21,010 nt of DNA from the IMG/VR virus record IMGVR_UViG_3300008267_002127, positions 1 through 21,010 of that record, one strand, 5' to 3'. How positions within the stretch are numbered: position 1 is the first letter of the stretch; every line of letters begins with the position of its first letter. Below, one piece after another: positions 1 through 9,861 of this stretch. The DNA comes from a virus. Both the position numbers and the translations under genes were made by a program. The notes under the pieces were generated by a model. That model saw only the letters and a list, made by a program, of their open reading frames with translations. It was not told where the DNA came from and made no database searches.

Positions 1-1614
1 GGATCTTTTAGTGGATCATTATTTGGTACTTCGAGTTGGGCAGTGAGTGCATCGAGAGCTATAAGCAGTTCTTTTTCCAACACAGCCTCTTTTGTAGTAA
101 CTGCTCAAACAGCATCATATGCGTTAAATGCTGTGAGTGCTTCCTACTCACTAAGTTCATCTCAAGCTCAAAATGCTCAAACAGCATCATATGTATTAAA
201 CGCTATAAGTAGTTCTTTTGCAACAACAGCATCACATAATCCAAACGCAGTAGTAACAGCGTCAGTTTCTACAAACACTATAACTTTTACAAAAGGAGAT
301 GGTAGCACATTCCCCATTACAGTAGACACTGGAAGTGGTGGAGGTAGTACAACTCCTGGAGGATCTGATCAACAAATACAATTTAATAGTAGTAGTGCTT
401 TTGAAGGAAATAGCAGTTTCGTGTTTGTGTACGATTCTCAAAGCTTGCAACAAGGAAACAATGTACTAGCATCAGGTCCATGGTCACACGCAGAAGGTAA
501 TTCTACAGTGGCATTAGGAACAGGATCTCACGCAGAAGGTGATAGTACCACAGCTCAAGGAAACTACTCTCATGCAGAAGGTGTGGGAGGAACAGCTACA
601 AACTCCTATTCACACGTGGAAGGTGGTTATACCAACACATATGGTGATTATGCTCACGCAGAAGGTTATGGATCAGCAGCGTCAGGAAGTTATTCGCATG
701 CTGAAGGATATGGTACACAAGCTAATGGGATAGCCTCACATGCAGAAGGCTTTACCACTAAAGCTTGGGGAATCTATTCACACGCAGAAGGCGATCAGAC
801 ACAAGCAACTGGAAGTGTTTCACACGCAGAAGGAAAAAACACAATAGCATCTGGAACAGGATCTCACGCTGAAGGGTATGCATCGAAAGCATCTGGTAGC
901 TACTCTCATGCTGAAGGTGGTGGTGATATTGGACCATTAGCTGGAAATTATTCCAATGCAAAAGGTGGATACACAATAGCATCAGGATCTTATCAATTAA
1001 CTTGTGGTAAATATAATACTCACGGAAACACAACCTCTTTATTCGTAGTTGGTAATGGTACTAATAATGCTAATAGAAATGACTTGGCATTGTTTAATCA
1101 AAGTAACATTCAATTTAATGCACCAGTAACAGGCTCTACTTTTACAGGTTCCTTTATAGGTGATGGCAGTGGATTAACTGGAATACCAGCAACTAATGAT
1201 GTGTACTATGTAAGAATGCAGATAACTGGATTGAATCCCTCAGATAATACTAGTTACTATGGTTCTGTTATCACATTAGTATCAACTGATGCTAATTTTC
1301 ATAAGTACGCAGTACCATATAATTCAACCTTAAACAGAGTTAGTATAGTATCGTACACAAATGTCACATCAGGATCGGCTGAAAGCTCTAGTTTATTCTT
1401 AAGAATAAACAACTCTACAGAAGTGTTGATAAGTGATCAGATACAATTTTCAGGTAGTAGTGGGCAAACTATGAATACGGTTTTAGCAACAGGATTATCA
1501 CAATCTTTAAATGCAGGTGACATTATACAAATAAGATGGTTAACACCAACATGGTCAACAAACCCAGCATCTGCTGGTGTGTTTGTAGATTTCTTCTTAC
1601 TTAAAACAAGTTAA
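1..1614 (+). CDS. Tail fibre / adhesin-like protein with YadA-type head repeats (5' truncated)
   Basis: The frame is open from base 1, so the gene begins before the window; the GTG at 43 is only an internal codon. The visible part (about 537 residues) starts with GSFSGSLFGTSSWA, then Ala/Ser-rich repeats of the TASYALNA type, a Gly/Ser linker, twelve SHAEG-type repeats, a GDGSGLTGIPA linker near 1161-1193, and a roughly 140-residue C-terminal domain rich in beta-type sequence that ends in FFLLKTS. SHAEG repeats with intervening Thr/Ala/Gly are typical of the left-handed beta-roll heads of trimeric adhesins and occur in phage fibres. The likely role is a trimeric, surface-exposed fibre or tip for host recognition. 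A tail location is inferred from the downstream sheath and tube genes; a head fibre is possible. Confidence 0.75.
   Translation, partial: GSFSGSLFGTSSWAVSASRAISSSFSNTASFVVTAQTASYALNAVSASYSLSSSQAQNAQTASYVLNAISSSFATTASHNPNAVVTASVSTNTITFTKGDGSTFPITVDTGSGGGSTTPGGSDQQIQFNSSSAFEGNSSFVFVYDSQSLQQGNNVLASGPWSHAEGNSTVALGTGSHAEGDSTTAQGNYSHAEGVGGTATNSYSHVEGGYTNTYGDYAHAEGYGSAASGSYSHAEGYGTQANGIASHAEGFTTKAWGIYSHAEGDQTQATGSVSHAEGKNTIASGTGSHAEGYASKASGSYSHAEGGGDIGPLAGNYSNAKGGYTIASGSYQLTCGKYNTHGNTTSLFVVGNGTNNANRNDLALFNQSNIQFNAPVTGSTFTGSFIGDGSGLTGIPATNDVYYVRMQITGLNPSDNTSYYGSVITLVSTDANFHKYAVPYNSTLNRVSIVSYTNVTSGSAESSSLFLRINNSTEVLISDQIQFSGSSGQTMNTVLATGLSQSLNAGDIIQIRWLTPTWSTNPASAGVFVDFFLLKTS
484..966 (+). repeat. SHAEG beta-roll repeats (12 units, protein level)
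   Basis: Twelve units with a period of about 13-16 residues: nine exact SHAEG plus the variants SHVEG, AHAEG and SNAKG, separated by Thr/Ala/Gly-rich spacers. The DNA has diverged between units, so this is an old protein-level repeat array and not a fresh tandem duplication. The pattern matches the YadA/Hep_Hag head repeat type. Confidence 0.8.
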
Positions 1615-4451: not shown

Positions 4452-4940
4452 ATGGCAAATTTAATAGAAAACGAACAAATGTTTTACACACCTTACGAAC
4501 CAAAGGTGCAAAACAGATTTATATTACAGATTGATGGTATTCCATCTTTCTTGTGTAAAAAAGTATCTCGCCCACAAATTGAGTGTGGCGAGGTAGTTTT
4601 AAGCCACATCAACATTATACGTAAGTTAAAAGGTATCTGTAAATGGAATGATATCACTTTGACGATGTATGATGCTATTGTACCTTCTGGAGCTCAAGCA
4701 GTAATGGAGTGGGTTAGAACTTCACATGAGTCAATAACTGGAAGAGATGGATACGCAGACTTCTACAAAAAGAATTTTGATATCTTTGTATTAGGACCAG
4801 TAGGTGATAAAATTGAAAACTGGAGAGTTCACGGAGCTTACATTAAAACAGCTCAATTTGGTGATATGGACTGGGCAACTGAAACTGCTGTAGAGATTCA
4901 GTTAACCTTAGGTCTAGATTACTGTGTATTAGAATACTAA
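4452..4940 (+). CDS. Tail tube protein (gp19-like)
   Basis: The 162-residue product matches the usual size of T4-type tube subunits, which stack as hexameric rings inside the sheath and guide DNA ejection. Visible hallmarks are NRFILQIDGIPSFLCKKVSRP near the N-terminus, the KLKGICKWNDITLTMYDAI beta-strand region, and the C-terminal segment DWATETAVEIQLTLGLDYCVLEY. ATG follows an A-rich leader. It lies directly downstream of the sheath and ahead of a strong terminator, so sheath and tube probably form one late transcription unit. Confidence 0.87.
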   Translation: MANLIENEQMFYTPYEPKVQNRFILQIDGIPSFLCKKVSRPQIECGEVVLSHINIIRKLKGICKWNDITLTMYDAIVPSGAQAVMEWVRTSHESITGRDGYADFYKKNFDIFVLGPVGDKIENWRVHGAYIKTAQFGDMDWATETAVEIQLTLGLDYCVLEY

Positions 4941-5094: not shown

Positions 5095-5307
5095 ATGAGC
5101 AAAGTTGTAAACGATAGTTACCCAAATCCAAACCGTCAATTAACAGACGACGAAATCAAAGCAAAGTTTTTAGCAGAAGCAAACAAGTTTAACACTGCAC
5201 CAACTACAAACACTAACACACCAAAGTTAGATGTTCCAACAGAAGTAATTGACTTACCCTCCAAAGGATATTTTTATCCAGAAGGACATCCATTAGCATC
5301 AAATTGA
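5095..5307 (+). pseudogene. T4-type baseplate/tail-assembly protein, N-terminal part (frameshifted)
   Basis: A polar, Asn/Thr-rich N-terminus is followed by VIDLPSKGYFYPEGHPLAS, a hallmark of the T4 baseplate-protein family (gp26-like). In that family this motif runs straight into EMKYMTAKEEDIL, which here lies in the next frame from 5303. The frame stops at TGA 5305-5307. One missing base around TCAAATTG (5299-5306) explains the break, as would a +1 ribosomal shift at AAT-TGA. Together with the following ORF this is probably one gene. Context between tube and tape measure suggests a tail-assembly role. Confidence 0.7.
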
Positions 5308-5308
5308 A

Positions 5309-5980
5309 ATGAAGTACATGACTGCTAAAGAGGAGGATATACTAGCATCTCAAACTTTAATCAAACAAGGTGTAGTGATAGACAAACTAATACAGTCTTT
5401 AATTGTAACTCCATTTGATTATAACGAACTATTAACCGTAGATAAGAATGCCATCTTTATAGCAGCTAGAGTGCTAGCTTATGGAGCTGACTATGAGATA
5501 GAAATTACTTGTCCAGCTTGTGGTGAAAAATCTACTAAGCATGTGGATTTGCAATCTTTTGAAAATAAAGAAATTAATTGGAATGCTTTTACAAAGGGTA
5601 GTTCTACATTCAACTTCACACTACCAGCAGCAGGTAAAAATAAATTAACCTTAAAATTACTTACTCATGGAGATGAAAGAGCTATTGAAGAGGAACTAAA
5701 GTCTCTTAAAAAGTTTACAAAAATAACAGGTGTAGATCCAGAACTAACAACAAGACTAAAACACTTGATTGCTGCAGTAGACGATAACTCAGATAAAAAC
5801 TATATCAGTAAATTTGTAGATTCCATGCTGTCAGTAAACTCTTTAGCATTACGTAAATACTTGAAAGAAGTAACACCTGATATTGACACTACATTTGAAT
5901 TCACTTGTCCACATTGTGGTCATGAGCAAGATAAAATGGCATTACCTATCAACGTAGGATTTTTTTGGCCTAGCCTCTAG
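5309..5980 (+). CDS. T4-type baseplate/tail-assembly protein, main part (gp26-like, zinc ribbon)
   Basis: Residues 1-35 (MKYMTAKEEDILASQTLIK onward, VIDKLIQSLIV) are the conserved core of the T4 baseplate-protein family. Two CPxC knuckles, C68/C71 and C200/C203, look like a split zinc ribbon. The frame is open upstream to 5297, and the ATG at 5309 is probably an internal Met of a longer gene whose N-terminal part is at 5095-5307. Its place between tube and tape measure is where tail-assembly chaperones sit in many tailed phages. It ends in GFFWPSL at TAG, next to a T7 run where a +1 shift would enter the following ORF. Confidence 0.78.
   Translation: MKYMTAKEEDILASQTLIKQGVVIDKLIQSLIVTPFDYNELLTVDKNAIFIAARVLAYGADYEIEITCPACGEKSTKHVDLQSFENKEINWNAFTKGSSTFNFTLPAAGKNKLTLKLLTHGDERAIEEELKSLKKFTKITGVDPELTTRLKHLIAAVDDNSDKNYISKFVDSMLSVNSLALRKYLKEVTPDIDTTFEFTCPHCGHEQDKMALPINVGFFWPSL
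5960..5966 (+). promoter_or_regulatory. Candidate +1 ribosomal frameshift site (T7 run)
   Basis: Zero-frame codons read GGA TTT TTT TGG CCT AGC CTC TAG. A Phe tRNA on TTT can move forward one base and re-pair perfectly. The +1 frame then reads GGC CTA GCC TCT AGT CAT AGG GGC ATG and continues without a stop into the 60-residue ORF at 5991. The arrangement resembles tail-chaperone recoding (lambda G/GT, P2 E/E'), though those use -1 shifts. The assignment is inference. Confidence 0.45.
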
Positions 5981-5990
5981 TCATAGGGGC

Positions 5991-6173
5991 ATGTTGCAGG
6001 ATGAGATATTTGATCTCATGTATTATGGAAAGATGGGCTTTTCGTATTGGGATTTATGGAACTTGCCTACTCACATAAGAAGATATTTCTATAGAAAATT
6101 AGCTGATACCAAGAAAAAAGAGCATGAGGCTGAAAAAGAAGCCTATGATAAAGCTAAATCAGGAAAAAAATAA
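5991..6173 (+). CDS. Short tail-assembly ORF, possibly a frameshift extension of the upstream gene
   Basis: The product begins MLQDEIFDLMYYGKMGFSYWDLWNLP, then THIRRYFYRKLAD, and ends in a Lys/Glu-rich helical tail. Short proteins of this pattern commonly follow the T4-type baseplate gene in related phages, as far as I recall. The ATG at 5991 lies 10 nt after the upstream TAG, with no Shine-Dalgarno sequence. The frame is open upstream to the T7 run, so it may be made independently, as a +1 fusion, or both. It lies upstream of the tape measure, consistent with a chaperone role. No catalytic motif is seen. Confidence 0.65.
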   Translation: MLQDEIFDLMYYGKMGFSYWDLWNLPTHIRRYFYRKLADTKKKEHEAEKEAYDKAKSGKK

Positions 6174-6226: not shown

Positions 6227-6574
6227 ATGAAAACAACAGAATTAAGAAAACTAATTAGAGAAGAAATTAGAAAGGTGATCAAAGAAGAAGATTCTTTTGG
6301 AGACGACATAGCAAAACAAATACAAGTAGAACGCTTAGCACAACAGCGCAAGTTTATTGCTTGGGCCAAAGCCACAGCTGCAAAAAAGAATATTAAAAGC
6401 TTGAGTTTCCAAGGAGATGCTATGGTGACTGTTTCATTAAGTAAGCTTCAGAGGAAGAATATATTAACAAAAGAGCTTGTAGATAAGTGGAAAGCCGCTG
6501 CAGAAGGTTCAATGGAAAATGATTTATATCAAGGATTGTCAGTATTGCTTACTAGATATAAAATTTTAGCTTAA
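6227..6574 (+). CDS. Small protein with shared N-terminal leader, copy 1 (candidate internal/packaged protein)
   Basis: The first 20 residues (MKTTELRKLIREEIRKVIKE) align without gaps to the N-termini of the genes at 6592 and 7083; after residue 20 the three proteins are unrelated. The leader is an amphipathic basic/acidic helix ending I-K-E|E. T4 prohead protease (gp21) cuts after [L/I]-x-E and removes similar N-terminal capsid-targeting peptides from internal proteins. The 95-residue remainder is Lys-rich and helical (AQQRKFIAWAKATAAKKN) with no known enzyme motif. The start follows seven A residues and the TATTTATA dyad. Internal-protein function is inference; a leader-mediated binding role is an alternative. 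Confidence 0.65.
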   Translation: MKTTELRKLIREEIRKVIKEEDSFGDDIAKQIQVERLAQQRKFIAWAKATAAKKNIKSLSFQGDAMVTVSLSKLQRKNILTKELVDKWKAAAEGSMENDLYQGLSVLLTRYKILA

Positions 6575-6591
6575 TTAAACAATCAAACACA

Positions 6592-6948
6592 ATGACAAAG
6601 TCAGAATTTAAAAAATTAATCAAAGAAGAAATTAAAAAAACTCTAAATGAAGCTAAAACATTTCCAATTGGGTTAGAAGAAATCCTTACTATGGACGATG
6701 ACCTTATAATTGTAATAGGCAATTCATCAGCTGATTTAATTGGATACAAACCAGAACCTGATCAATTAAAAAAACTTGATGATATAATGCGTAAGTATGA
6801 CTTTGTCCCTTATAAAAAACCAGTCGGAGGAATGTTCACTGCAGGTAAGATAAAATACAGACTTCTTGGAGGTGGTACCACTTACATGAGTCATTTGCTA
6901 GATATATATAAACAAGTTAAAGCTTTAAAATTAAGTCATAGTTACTAA
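6592..6948 (+). CDS. Small protein with shared N-terminal leader, copy 2 (candidate internal/packaged protein)
   Basis: The leader MTKSEFKKLIKEEIKKTLNE is followed by A, giving L-N-E|A, the form closest to the classical T4 gp21 cleavage site of the three. The 98-residue remainder differs from its neighbours. It has a hydrophobic strand DDLIIVIGNSSADLIG, a charged segment PEPDQLKKLDDIMRKYDF, and a Gly-rich GGMFTAGKIKYRLLGGG. No family is recognised. It lies 17 nt after the preceding gene, probably in the same transcript, and ends just before a perfect 10-bp hairpin. Confidence 0.65.
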   Translation: MTKSEFKKLIKEEIKKTLNEAKTFPIGLEEILTMDDDLIIVIGNSSADLIGYKPEPDQLKKLDDIMRKYDFVPYKKPVGGMFTAGKIKYRLLGGGTTYMSHLLDIYKQVKALKLSHSY

Positions 6949-7082: not shown

Positions 7083-7391
7083 ATGAAGAAGTCAGAATTG
7101 CATAAAATTATTAGAGAGGAAATACAAAATCACATGATAGAGGAGGGTATTGTGAACTGGATGTTAGATAAAGCAGCTACATTTGTTAAAAACCATTTTA
7201 ACCACGTAGCCGACTATCAGTATGCTAGACTGATAGCATCACCTGATTTTAGATCACTACACAAAAAATTTAATATGAGTGAAAAGGACTTTTTAGCAAA
7301 AGCCACAAGTCTAATAAAACAAAACCCTAAAAAGTTTGCAGATATATTAGCTTATGATGCATCAAAATCACGATATGCAAAATTTTTCTAA
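7083..7391 (+). CDS. Small protein with shared N-terminal leader, copy 3 (candidate internal/packaged protein)
   Basis: The leader MKKSELHKIIREEIQNHMIE matches the two upstream genes at M1, E5, K8, I10, E12, E13, I14 and E20. Possible cleavage sites are M-I-E|E or I-E-E|G. The remainder (82 residues) is basic and aromatic, rich in His, Phe and Tyr (TFVKNHFNHVADYQYARL, ending SKSRYAKFF). It has its own upstream terminator and TATTTATA pair, so it looks like an independently expressed cassette just before the tape measure, whose ATG lies 6 nt after this stop. No family is recognised. Confidence 0.65.
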   Translation: MKKSELHKIIREEIQNHMIEEGIVNWMLDKAATFVKNHFNHVADYQYARLIASPDFRSLHKKFNMSEKDFLAKATSLIKQNPKKFADILAYDASKSRYAKFF

Positions 7392-7397
7392 TGTTAG

Positions 7398-8417
7398 ATG
7401 GCTGGTAACAAACTAAACATAGATCCAAACGAATTTCAGAATCTAACTAAACAGATTGCTGATGCTATTGGTGCAGGGATGAAGCAAGGTGCAGAAAAAG
7501 GTAAAAAGGCTTTTGGAGGTGCTGATCTGCTGAGTGAGATGAAGTCTCAATTAGATGAGATAGGTAAAGCAGAAAAAGCTAACAACTTTGCCGCACAAGT
7601 TAAAAATAAAATGCTCAATGAGGGTATATCATCTCAACGTGCAGAAGTCCAAATACTAGCTCAACAGCAGATTGCAAAAAACAATCTAGTTAAAAAGGCG
7701 GCTGAAGAAAATATGCTTCAAATGGGTCTGCTTAAACTTCAAGCACAACAAGCGGGTAACACAGACCTTGTTAAACACTATGATAACAGAATTCAGAAAT
7801 CTCAAGAGTTTGTTAAAGGTATCGAAAACGAAAACAATGCAATCAAAGGTACTTCAAAACTAATAGATAAAAAACTCAAACAGCAAGACGAAGAAAAGGA
7901 GTCTATTAAAACACAGAATGAAATTAATGATAAGTTTAAGGAGATAAATAAAACATTAAAAGAGCGTATAGGTATAACAGAGGAAGTTATAGATCAATTA
8001 AGGACACCAGAAATGGCAAAAGCTGTTTTCTTTCAACAAATGGTTTCCAAAGGTGAACAAGTCCTTGAGACATTCGAAAAACTAGATCAGTCAGGATTAT
8101 CCCTTGGACAACGAGTAGATTACATGAGAAAGAGCTTTAGCATGATGTCGGTCATGGGACTATCAGATACTAAAGGTGTTTTAGATGGTATGGTGGAGAG
8201 CTATGGTACCTTAAACGCTATGACAGAGGATCAAGTGGATCATGTTGGTCACTTAGCAAAGCAGATGGGTGTGAGTGGTCAAGAAGCTTTTGGAATGGTT
8301 GATGCCTTTTCAAAAATGCCAGGTGAAACAATGGAAACTGCTGCAAACACAGCAGACTTTGTTAACAACTTAGCTAAAGCAAACGGCATTGCACCAGGAA
8401 AAACAAGCTGCTGTTGA
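7398..8417 (+). pseudogene. Tape-measure-like tail protein, N-terminal part (frame broken)
   Basis: The product is helical and Gln/Lys/Glu-rich, with long coiled-coil stretches around residues 50-190, then a more globular part (FFQQMVSKGEQVLETF..., MTEDQVDHVGHLAKQMGVSGQEAFGMV). It ends at NNLAKANGIAPGKTSCC before TGA. The following ORF, in the +1 frame, continues with the remainder of the same protein type. From memory of related phage proteins, about 25 residues normally lie between the APGK and AVEL segments, so a deletion plus frameshift is likely. Position after tube and assembly genes supports a tape-measure role, setting tail length and running inside the tube. Confidence 0.68.
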
Positions 8418-9861
8418 ATTACACAAAATGGGTGTTGAAATCGGGACAGCAAGTAAAATGGCTCAAGGCTTGCTAAATTTTGAAGATAGTATCAACAAGC
8501 AGATGGAAGCTTCTGTATTGCTTGGTAGAGAAATTAATTTAGATAAAGCAAGAGAGTTATCTCTAAATGGTGACTTGGAAGGTGCCACAAGAGAGGTAAT
8601 GAATAACATTGGAGGAGCTGCAGAGCTTGAAAAAATGAATGTTTTGCAGAAGCAAGCATTAGCTCAAGCAACAGGCATGACAGTTGAAGACTTAGCTAAG
8701 GCTGTTGATGCACAACAAGAAAAAAATAAATATACTGGAGAAGAAGCCTCTGCGTTAAATAGATCGTTAGGCTTTATCATGGAAATGGGTGGTGGTGTAA
8801 AAAATCTAATAAAAGATTATGGCATGGCAGCTCTGTCAGTATTACAAATGGTAGCTCAGCTAAGATTAGCAAAAGCTCTACAAGGAGACACTGCTAAGAG
8901 TGGTAAAGGATTCTTTTCAAAGATGTTTGGTGGTGGTGAAAAAATGCCAGAGACCAAAACACCAGAAGTCAAAACAGAGGCTTTAGATAAAGCAGATAAA
9001 ATGAAAGGCAAAGGTGGTGGTTTTATAGATTCCATGAAAGGATTAGCAGATGGTTTAAAACAAATGGCTGGAAGCAAGGTATTTCAAGGTATACTAAACA
9101 CAGCACTAGCAGGACCAGCACTAGTACTATCCTTATCAGCAATACCGTTTTTACTCTTCATGGGAATGGTTCCACTTAAACAACTTGGAAACAACTTTAT
9201 GAATCTAGCAATAGGTTTAGAGTTTATGGGTAGTGGCAAAGTTGCACTAGGTTCATTAAACACAATGTTATTTGCAGCAGCCGGTGTTATTGGATTAGCA
9301 GCAATACCTTTTATGCTTGCTATAGCACTTGGCGGTGCTTTAGTAGGTAGTGGATTAATGGGATTAGCTTCTGGCTTAACTGCAATGGGTAATCCAATGG
9401 TAGCACTTGGAGCAGGTATATTAGCTATGGTGTTATTATCAGCAGGAGCTTCCATGTTAATGTTTGGAGCAGGAGTTGGCATAGCAGCAGCAGGAATGTC
9501 GCTATTAGTAGCATCTTTAAAAGACGTACCATTTGAAAATTTATTAGCATTACCAGTAGCCTTTTTAGGTATTGGAGCAGGATTATATTTAATGGCAGCA
9601 GCAGGATTAGCAGCATTGCCTATATTAGGAGCATTAACAGCATTTGCATTAGTAGCACCAGCATTAACAGGTCTAGGTTCAGCTATTGGTGGAATGTTTG
9701 GAGGAGGTGGAGAAGGTGAGAAAGAAGATACATCAAAACTACTATTAGAAGAAATTAAAGGATTGAGAGCAGACTTAAATAAAGGTGGCATTATCAATAT
9801 GGATGGTAAAAAAGTTGGTGATGTAATAAGACTAGCGTTGAACACAGCAGGAACAAGATAA
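8389..9861 (+). pseudogene. Tape-measure-like tail protein, C-terminal part (frame broken)
   Basis: The frame is open from 8374; the TTG at 8389 is only the first possible start, and homologous sequence really begins near QAAVELHKMGVEIGTASKMAQGL. Next come a conserved helical segment (QMEASVLLGREINLDKARELSLNGDLEGA), a Gly/Lys linker, and a long hydrophobic region from about residue 225 to 435 rich in Ala, Leu and Gly with several membrane-helix-like stretches. Such hydrophobic segments are typical of tape-measure proteins and may form a channel in the host inner membrane on ejection. The C-terminus (EEIKGLRADLNKGGIINMDGK) is a short helix plus strand. Confidence 0.7.

Follow-up and report, generated by a model that had tools for sequence, protein, structure and literature searches.

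Synthesis of two tail-assembly chaperones from one gene by recoding is, as a kind, already known. In lambda (G/GT), HK97, SPP1 (17.5/17.5*) and P2 (E/E'), the gene lies between those for tail tube and tape measure, and its two products share their N-terminus, the longer one acquiring a C-terminal extension encoded in an overlapping frame. The SPP1 frameshift site is UUUUUUC (PMC6316719). According to a 2016 review (PMC5009743), tail-chaperone G-T frameshifting is conserved 'except T4', and the shift in HSTV-2 is probably +1; a +1 shift between tube and tape measure was proposed for HF1-group haloviruses, with the site TTT-CGC (PMC7230728). For T4, the hub assembly chaperones listed include gp26 and gp51; the latter does not occur in the finished particle (PMC3004832). 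Here we describe a gene pair in a viral DNA of 21,010 nucleotides (IMG/VR record IMGVR_UViG_3300008267_002127, positions 1 to 21,010; this whole stretch is hereafter called the window). Open reading frame (ORF) 5309-5980 and the extension following it share gene position, overlapping-frame extension and common N-terminus with the lambda, HK97, SPP1 and P2 pairs. Sequence comparison makes it very likely that they form a tail-assembly-chaperone pair of lambda G/GT type made by +1 ribosomal frameshifting, probably by slippage of Phe-tRNA. Unlike those four systems, which shift -1, the branch of the window would shift +1 at YUU_U, and its protein belongs to family PF12322.

The window reads GGA TTT TTT TGG CCT AGC CTC TAG at positions 5957-5980. 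The T7 run (5960-5966) is located near the end of the 223-codon ORF 5309-5980, and TAG at 5978-5980 is the stop codon of frame 0. From the run onwards, no stop interrupts the +1 frame before TAA 6171-6173, with ATG 5991 lying in between (translation FFGLASSHRGMLQDEIFDLMYYGKMGF...), and reading across the run in this frame gives ...NVGFFGLASSHRGMLQDEIFDLMYYGKMGF.... No other T7 occurs on the coding strand in these 21 kb; for both strands together, 15 T7 runs were found versus 23 expected by composition. An earlier note, made from the letters of this DNA alone, had drawn attention to the run and to the +1 frame passing TAG 5978, placed the pair between tube and tape-measure genes, and added that TAG is otherwise not used as a stop. 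The window sequence agrees on each point. Among 21 genes checked, ORF 5309-5980 alone ends with TAG.

The junction was compared in 80 IMG/VR relatives of 44-70% identity, yielding 73 distinct scorable junctions (first set), and in a full set comprising 123 distinct junctions of homologues. All 73 junctions of the first set and 121/123 overall share the +1 layout, a conservation that raises the observation above chance. The distance between the first Phe codon of the site and the frame-0 stop is invariably 6 or 8 codons in the first set. The site itself is TTT TTT TGG in 95 of the 123 junctions. Conservation of the run and of the open overlap in homologues, which the earlier note had asked for, is thus found: stops in the overlap, named there as refutation, did not occur, and in relatives the downstream ORF adjoins the gene before it instead of lying far away. 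The +1 layout is missing only from L208 and L211, which are sister branches of the tree. Their slip site is changed or their +1 overlap closed, and the extension apparently forms a separate ORF with its own ATG. Recoding seems to have been lost in both, judging from their sequences.

Variation of the site is restricted. TTT TTT TGG CCT is found in 64/73 junctions of the first set, where the variants are TTT TTT TAY, TTT CTT TGG and CTT TTT TGG. Across the 123 junctions, nearly all variants retain +1-slippable YUU_U or UUU_C; at nearly all +1 sites, a YUU-reading tRNA can thus re-pair one base downstream on UUU or UUC (UUU_U, CUU_U, UUU_C). In the first set, TTC accounts for 0/143 Phe codons at the site versus 23% elsewhere in the same genes, a comparison of related sequences to which no probability is attached. 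Eleven further loci have TTC TTT TGG, where the second Phe codon alone is slippable and the run is reduced to four Ts.

The same organization occurs in cultured phages. The extension is in the +1 frame in Flavobacterium phage immuto (TTT CTT TGG), Microcystis phage Mel-JY01 (T7GGCC), Bacillus phage SP-15 (TTT TTT CAC), Listeria phage LIS04 (TTT TTT AGT) and Streptococcus phage GXN1 (TTC TTT CGT). A joined product is annotated in none of these five records. In the immuto record, the extension appears only as a hypothetical protein of ~36 residues; the shifted product would cross the junction ...IPIGVSFFGLTPEYR.

Since a seven-base homopolymer is present in most members, the fused protein might also result from transcriptional slippage on T7, with mRNAs of altered length and without any ribosomal shift. 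The layout is however kept where the run is broken, as in TTT CTT TGG (immuto, L063, L078), TTC TTT TGG, TTC TTT CGT and TTT CTA, and each of these variants retains a codon able to re-pair one base downstream. For this reason we consider transcriptional slippage very improbable.

The extension is a real part of a protein under protein-level selection, as its sequence evolution indicates. Between relatives, 61% of substitutions in the extension affect third positions of +1-frame codons, and amino acid identity is 76% in this frame versus 47-49% in the others. No stops interrupt the +1 frame of the extension in 70 sequences, whereas the other frames are full of them. The extension of the window's family has no match in Pfam or PHROG.

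A conserved protein might also be expressed on its own, from two ordinary overlapping genes; the extension would then depend on termination-reinitiation or on internal initiation, and the run of Ts would be incidental. ATG 5991 of the window, with purine-rich sequence immediately 5', would suit this arrangement, as would the seemingly separate ATG-started extension ORFs of L208 and L211 and an ATG near the start of most cyanophage extensions (see below). Independent initiation nevertheless fails for the family, because 29/73 loci of the first set contain no ATG, GTG or TTG in the open +1 frame ahead of the conserved core; between site and core, a start codon is missing in 60/73. Moreover, the run is invariant despite variation of Phe codons at other places, all but two of the 123 junctions have an overlap without stops in the +1 frame, and the loci that appear to have an own start, L208 and L211, are exactly those two. 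Overlapping genes are thus an improbable explanation, and +1 frameshifting is preferred.

In the subclade including the window, the site is followed by a potential stem-loop with 7 base pairs (bp) and a 4-nucleotide loop, starting four bases after TGG. All seven pairs are formed at that position in 18/73 loci; no locus forms all seven once the partner is moved by up to 4 bases. Four of the seven pairs display two-sided changes (15 distinct sequences); for example, the window has C-G/C-G where relatives have G-C/G-C. The covariation score of the stem is 0.456, versus 0.233 +/- 0.032 upon shuffling and at most 0.156 with slid partners. This pattern suggests that the stem-loop is probably a frameshift stimulator in the subclade. 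A 3' RNA structure universal to the family was rejected, as most relatives have none. An upstream Shine-Dalgarno-like element acting as a common stimulator, as it does in RF2, was likewise rejected, since the 12 nucleotides upstream vary freely. Rfam revealed no family at gathering threshold, its only match near the site being at chance level.

Expression of the pair may be envisaged as follows. The majority of ribosomes would stop at TAG 5978 and release a short, G-like protein ending with FFWPSL. In a minority, peptidyl-tRNA-Phe in the P site would move one base, from UUU to the overlapping UUU, with UGG waiting; these ribosomes would stay in the +1 frame and synthesize a long, GT-like protein with a C-terminal domain of ~69 residues. 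The predicted junction peptide of the +1 product is MALPINVGFFGLASSHR, its unshifted counterpart MALPINVGFFWPSL. In the subclade of the window, the stem-loop directly 3' of the site, holding the frame-0 stop, would probably stimulate the shift. If lambda is taken as a model, the tape measure might be coated by the short form while the extension recruits tube or hub subunits, and both forms would act during assembly and then leave. From sequences we infer the ribosomal slippage itself, its efficiency, its exact codon and a low ratio of long to short product, and from analogy a chaperone function for tape measure or hub.

Slippage of a YUU-reading P-site tRNA onto an overlapping UUY is also common to RF2 (prfB; CUU_UGA) and influenza PA-X (UCC_UUU_CGU); the GXN1 site, UUC_UUU_CGU, resembles the latter. 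The RF2 shift makes use of a stop codon and an upstream Shine-Dalgarno-like element. Neither of them is present at the shift described here. HF1-group viruses and HSTV-2 resemble the window in +1 direction, TTT-containing site, gene position and myovirus type. They differ in being archaeal viruses with the site TTT-CGC, for which few genomes were compared.

To which proteins is the pair related? The product of ORF 5309-5980 matches Pfam family PF12322 (T4_baseplate) with 59.4 bits (cut-off 24.5) and phrog_150, 'baseplate hub'. Because PF12322 matches both T4 gp26 (9e-64) and T4 gp51 (4e-52), the two T4 proteins are paralogues. In addition, the window-type extension family matches the cyanophage extension, annotated as gp51, in profile comparison (E 1e-5), and the cyanophage extension in turn matches residues 202-244 of T4 gp51 (profile, E 3e-5). 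It also matches phrog_634, 'baseplate hub assembly catalyst', which itself matches T4 gp51 at 147-246. Owing to this chain of profiles, T4 gp51 has the appearance of family domain and extension fused in frame, and T4 gp26 that of the short form. Comparison of the window-type family with single T4 gp26 or gp51 sequences by hhalign was not significant; the link to T4 runs via PF12322 and via the cyanophage family.

Search of PDB sequences with the window protein or gp51 retrieved nothing useful. An AlphaFold2 model was built for the short form only, from the relative L002 (predicted local distance difference test score, pLDDT, 91.6). Its two best VIA matches are YqbN (Z 4.9), a member of the phage tail-assembly-chaperone family, and the HK97 tail assembly chaperone (Z 3.6); the latter (2ob9) is also ranked second by Foldseek (E 0.93). 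As these values are below the level showing a shared fold, the resemblance to tail assembly chaperones is suggestive only.

Classification of T4 gp26 and gp51 as hub assembly chaperones (PMC3004832) raises a different question, namely whether the +1 shift is genuine but its products are baseplate-hub assembly factors, their likeness to lambda G/GT being functional convergence only. In cyanophage Sf-FS3, the pair adjoins the tail lysozyme gene and is not located between tube and tape measure, as would fit such factors. It does lie between these two genes in the window, immuto, Mel-JY01, SP-15 and LIS04, with the complete order tube, chaperone gene, extension, tape measure recurring in immuto and Mel-JY01, and the model resembles, weakly, the HK97 chaperone and YqbN. 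We therefore find a purely hub-related role unlikely. The proposal of the earlier note that this is a tail-assembly-chaperone pair finds support in synteny, in homology to T4 gp26/gp51 and, weakly, in predicted fold.

Several points have to be set against +1 frameshifting of a tail-chaperone gene. ATG 5991, which places the window among a minority of loci with such a start, is situated ten bases past the frame-0 stop, so that independent initiation is possible for the window taken alone. Re-pairing at the second codon is imperfect in LIS04 (UUU_A), where the first codon is needed, and LR756508 permits re-pairing only at its first codon (UUU_CUA). The stem is confined to one subclade and most other relatives have no obvious stimulator, which means that the family as a whole can do without it. 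The structural resemblance to tail assembly chaperones is weak, with a Foldseek E of 0.93 and Z values below 5. Finally, the contig is not a clean genome, since it contains two other frame breaks.

The first of these breaks lies within 5295-5310, near 5304-5309, where the window is 5 nucleotides shorter than its relatives; their short-form reading frame continues across this region (...EGHPLSSGKIEMKYMTAKEED). The second is in the tape-measure gene near 8405, where ~70 nucleotides of the relatives are absent and the frame is broken, the relatives being continuous. Around this break (window 8395-8425), the missing nucleotides are flanked by short GGAAA repeats in L002. The two breaks show that either the assembly of this contig is imperfect or the virus is a defective variant. 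They might suggest that the junction, too, is a sequencing error or part of a decayed gene. However, other contigs supply more than 110 distinct junctions with the +1 layout, and several cultured phages have it too, by which an error at the junction is rejected; the probability left to it is practically negligible. The breaks have no effect on the junction at 5960, whose layout is common to all close relatives.

Features of the locus are listed in Table 1.

Table 1. Coordinates of the chaperone locus and its neighbours in the window
Feature	Position	Strand	Remarks
Tail tube gene, gp19-like	4452..4940	+	phrog_4542 6e-27; PF06841 6e-6, slightly under Pfam cut-off
N-terminal part of short-form chaperone, 70 codons, ...LPSKGYFYPEGHPLAS	5095..5307	+	Frame differs from remainder only in this contig
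Short form, frame 0, gp26/gp51 family, ends FFWPSL*	5309..5980	+	PF12322 5.5e-16; phrog_150 4.9e-16
Predicted slip site TTT TTT TGG	5960..5968	+	+1 re-pairing of tRNA-Phe, UUU to UUU
Stem-loop GCCTCTA-GTCA-TAGGGGC, 7 bp	5973..5990	+	Begins 4 nucleotides past TGG; frame-0 stop TAG 5978-5980 inside
+1-frame extension, predicted C-terminus of long form, FGLASSHRGMLQDEIFDLMYYGKMGFSYWDLWNLPTHIRRYFYRKLADTKKK...	5964..6173	+	Encloses ATG-initiated ORF 5991-6173
Tape-measure gene, downstream neighbour	7398..9861	+	Broken in this contig near 8405

The gp19-like tube gene is followed by the chaperone gene, the extension, three small ORFs and the tape-measure gene. The small ORFs (6227-6574, 6592-6948 and 7083-7391) have similar leader-like N-termini (MKTTELRKLIREEI, MTKSEFKKLIKEEI and MKKSELHKIIREEI) and are without family match. 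At the beginning of the window, ORF 1-1614 contains repeated SHAEG motifs (window 450-1000), reminiscent of trimeric adhesin head repeats; it probably encodes a tail fibre or appendage protein. No tRNA genes were found in the window. Contigs of GTDB genomes that carry relatives of the window's branch are binned with Winogradskyella, Flavobacteriales and Sphingobacteriales, and hosts of this branch are therefore likely to be Bacteroidota.

A different arrangement was observed in the cyanophage-type branch. Here the gp26-like gene ends with ...FF and one more residue, and the 'gp51' of ~60 residues comes next, in the -1 frame. This gp51 is homologous to the window extension and, like it, directly behind a gp26-like gene. 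It differs in lying in the -1 frame after an invariant T_TTT_TTC, a canonical -1 heptamer present in 63/63 distinct junctions and the same as the SPP1 site; elsewhere in these genes, TTT makes up 74% of Phe codons. The -1 arrangement also occurs in Aeromonas phiAS5 and relatives, in Rhizobium IC12 and RL38J1 (TTTTTTG) and in the huge phage LR756511. In cyanophages and other T4-type phages, loci L095-L174, L177-L180, L088, L090-L092 and L094 carry the invariant -1 heptamer T_TTT_TTC (TTTTTTG in L092) where the gp26-like gene ends; it leads into a short gp51, with recoding apparently unannotated. Since most -1 type extensions have an ATG near their start, the case for -1 recoding rests on the invariant heptamer together with L138, L162 and L164, which have no standard start.

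In a phylogenetic tree of the shared domain, midpoint-rooted and with long branches, -1 members group with the two T4 paralogues (support 1.0). The second clade contains the +1 members, and LR756511 (-1) branches off basally to the SP-15 group. Taken jointly, the sequences indicate that gp26/gp51 is probably one ancient recoded gene of the T4 superfamily, in which the direction of shift has varied, with few losses and a duplication in T4. According to this interpretation, the shift would be -1 at U_UUU_UUC in cyanophage and proteobacterial lineages and one huge phage, and +1 at YUU_U or UUU_C in phages of Bacteroidota, Microcystis and Firmicutes, its direction having changed at the same pair of Phe codons during evolution. 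In T4, a duplication yielding gp26 (short) and gp51 (long) would have taken the place of recoding.

The T4 proteins share their Pfam family with the window protein, and gp51 has an extension-like C-terminal domain. T4 differs in having short and long forms as two genes, without frameshift, where the phage of the window would use one. The earlier note had considered a +1 shift unusual in a T4-type system. This holds in part: T4 relatives do recode the pair, mostly by -1 in the cyanophage/proteobacterial branch, but +1 is present in the branch of the window, and in T4 itself recoding appears to be replaced by gene duplication.

A T4-type tail-chaperone frameshift was not found in the open literature searched. 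Specifically, we found there neither a +1 shift at YUU_U shared by a large T4-type clade of bacterial phages, nor recoding of the same gene pair in opposite directions in sister clades, nor T4 gp26/gp51 as duplicated short and long forms. A 2010 comparison did observe that gp51 of cyanophages and marine vibriophages is without the first ~200 residues yet resembles the C-terminus of the T4 protein (PMC3037559). Recoding from the adjacent gp26 gene would supply these residues and thereby account for their absence, so that the 'reduced' gp51 of marine cyanophages would be explained.

The family would also offer an extensive natural series of one gene pair with backward recoding, forward recoding or none; its long product is missed by present annotation in the records examined. 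If our interpretation is true, T4 gp26 and gp51 would be recast as short and long forms of one chaperone. Their being paralogues would explain why T4 is listed as the exception to G-T frameshifting. This textbook contractile phage, given thereby a direct and testable reason for its exceptional status, would then represent a lineage that has escaped conserved G-T recoding rather than an exception to it.
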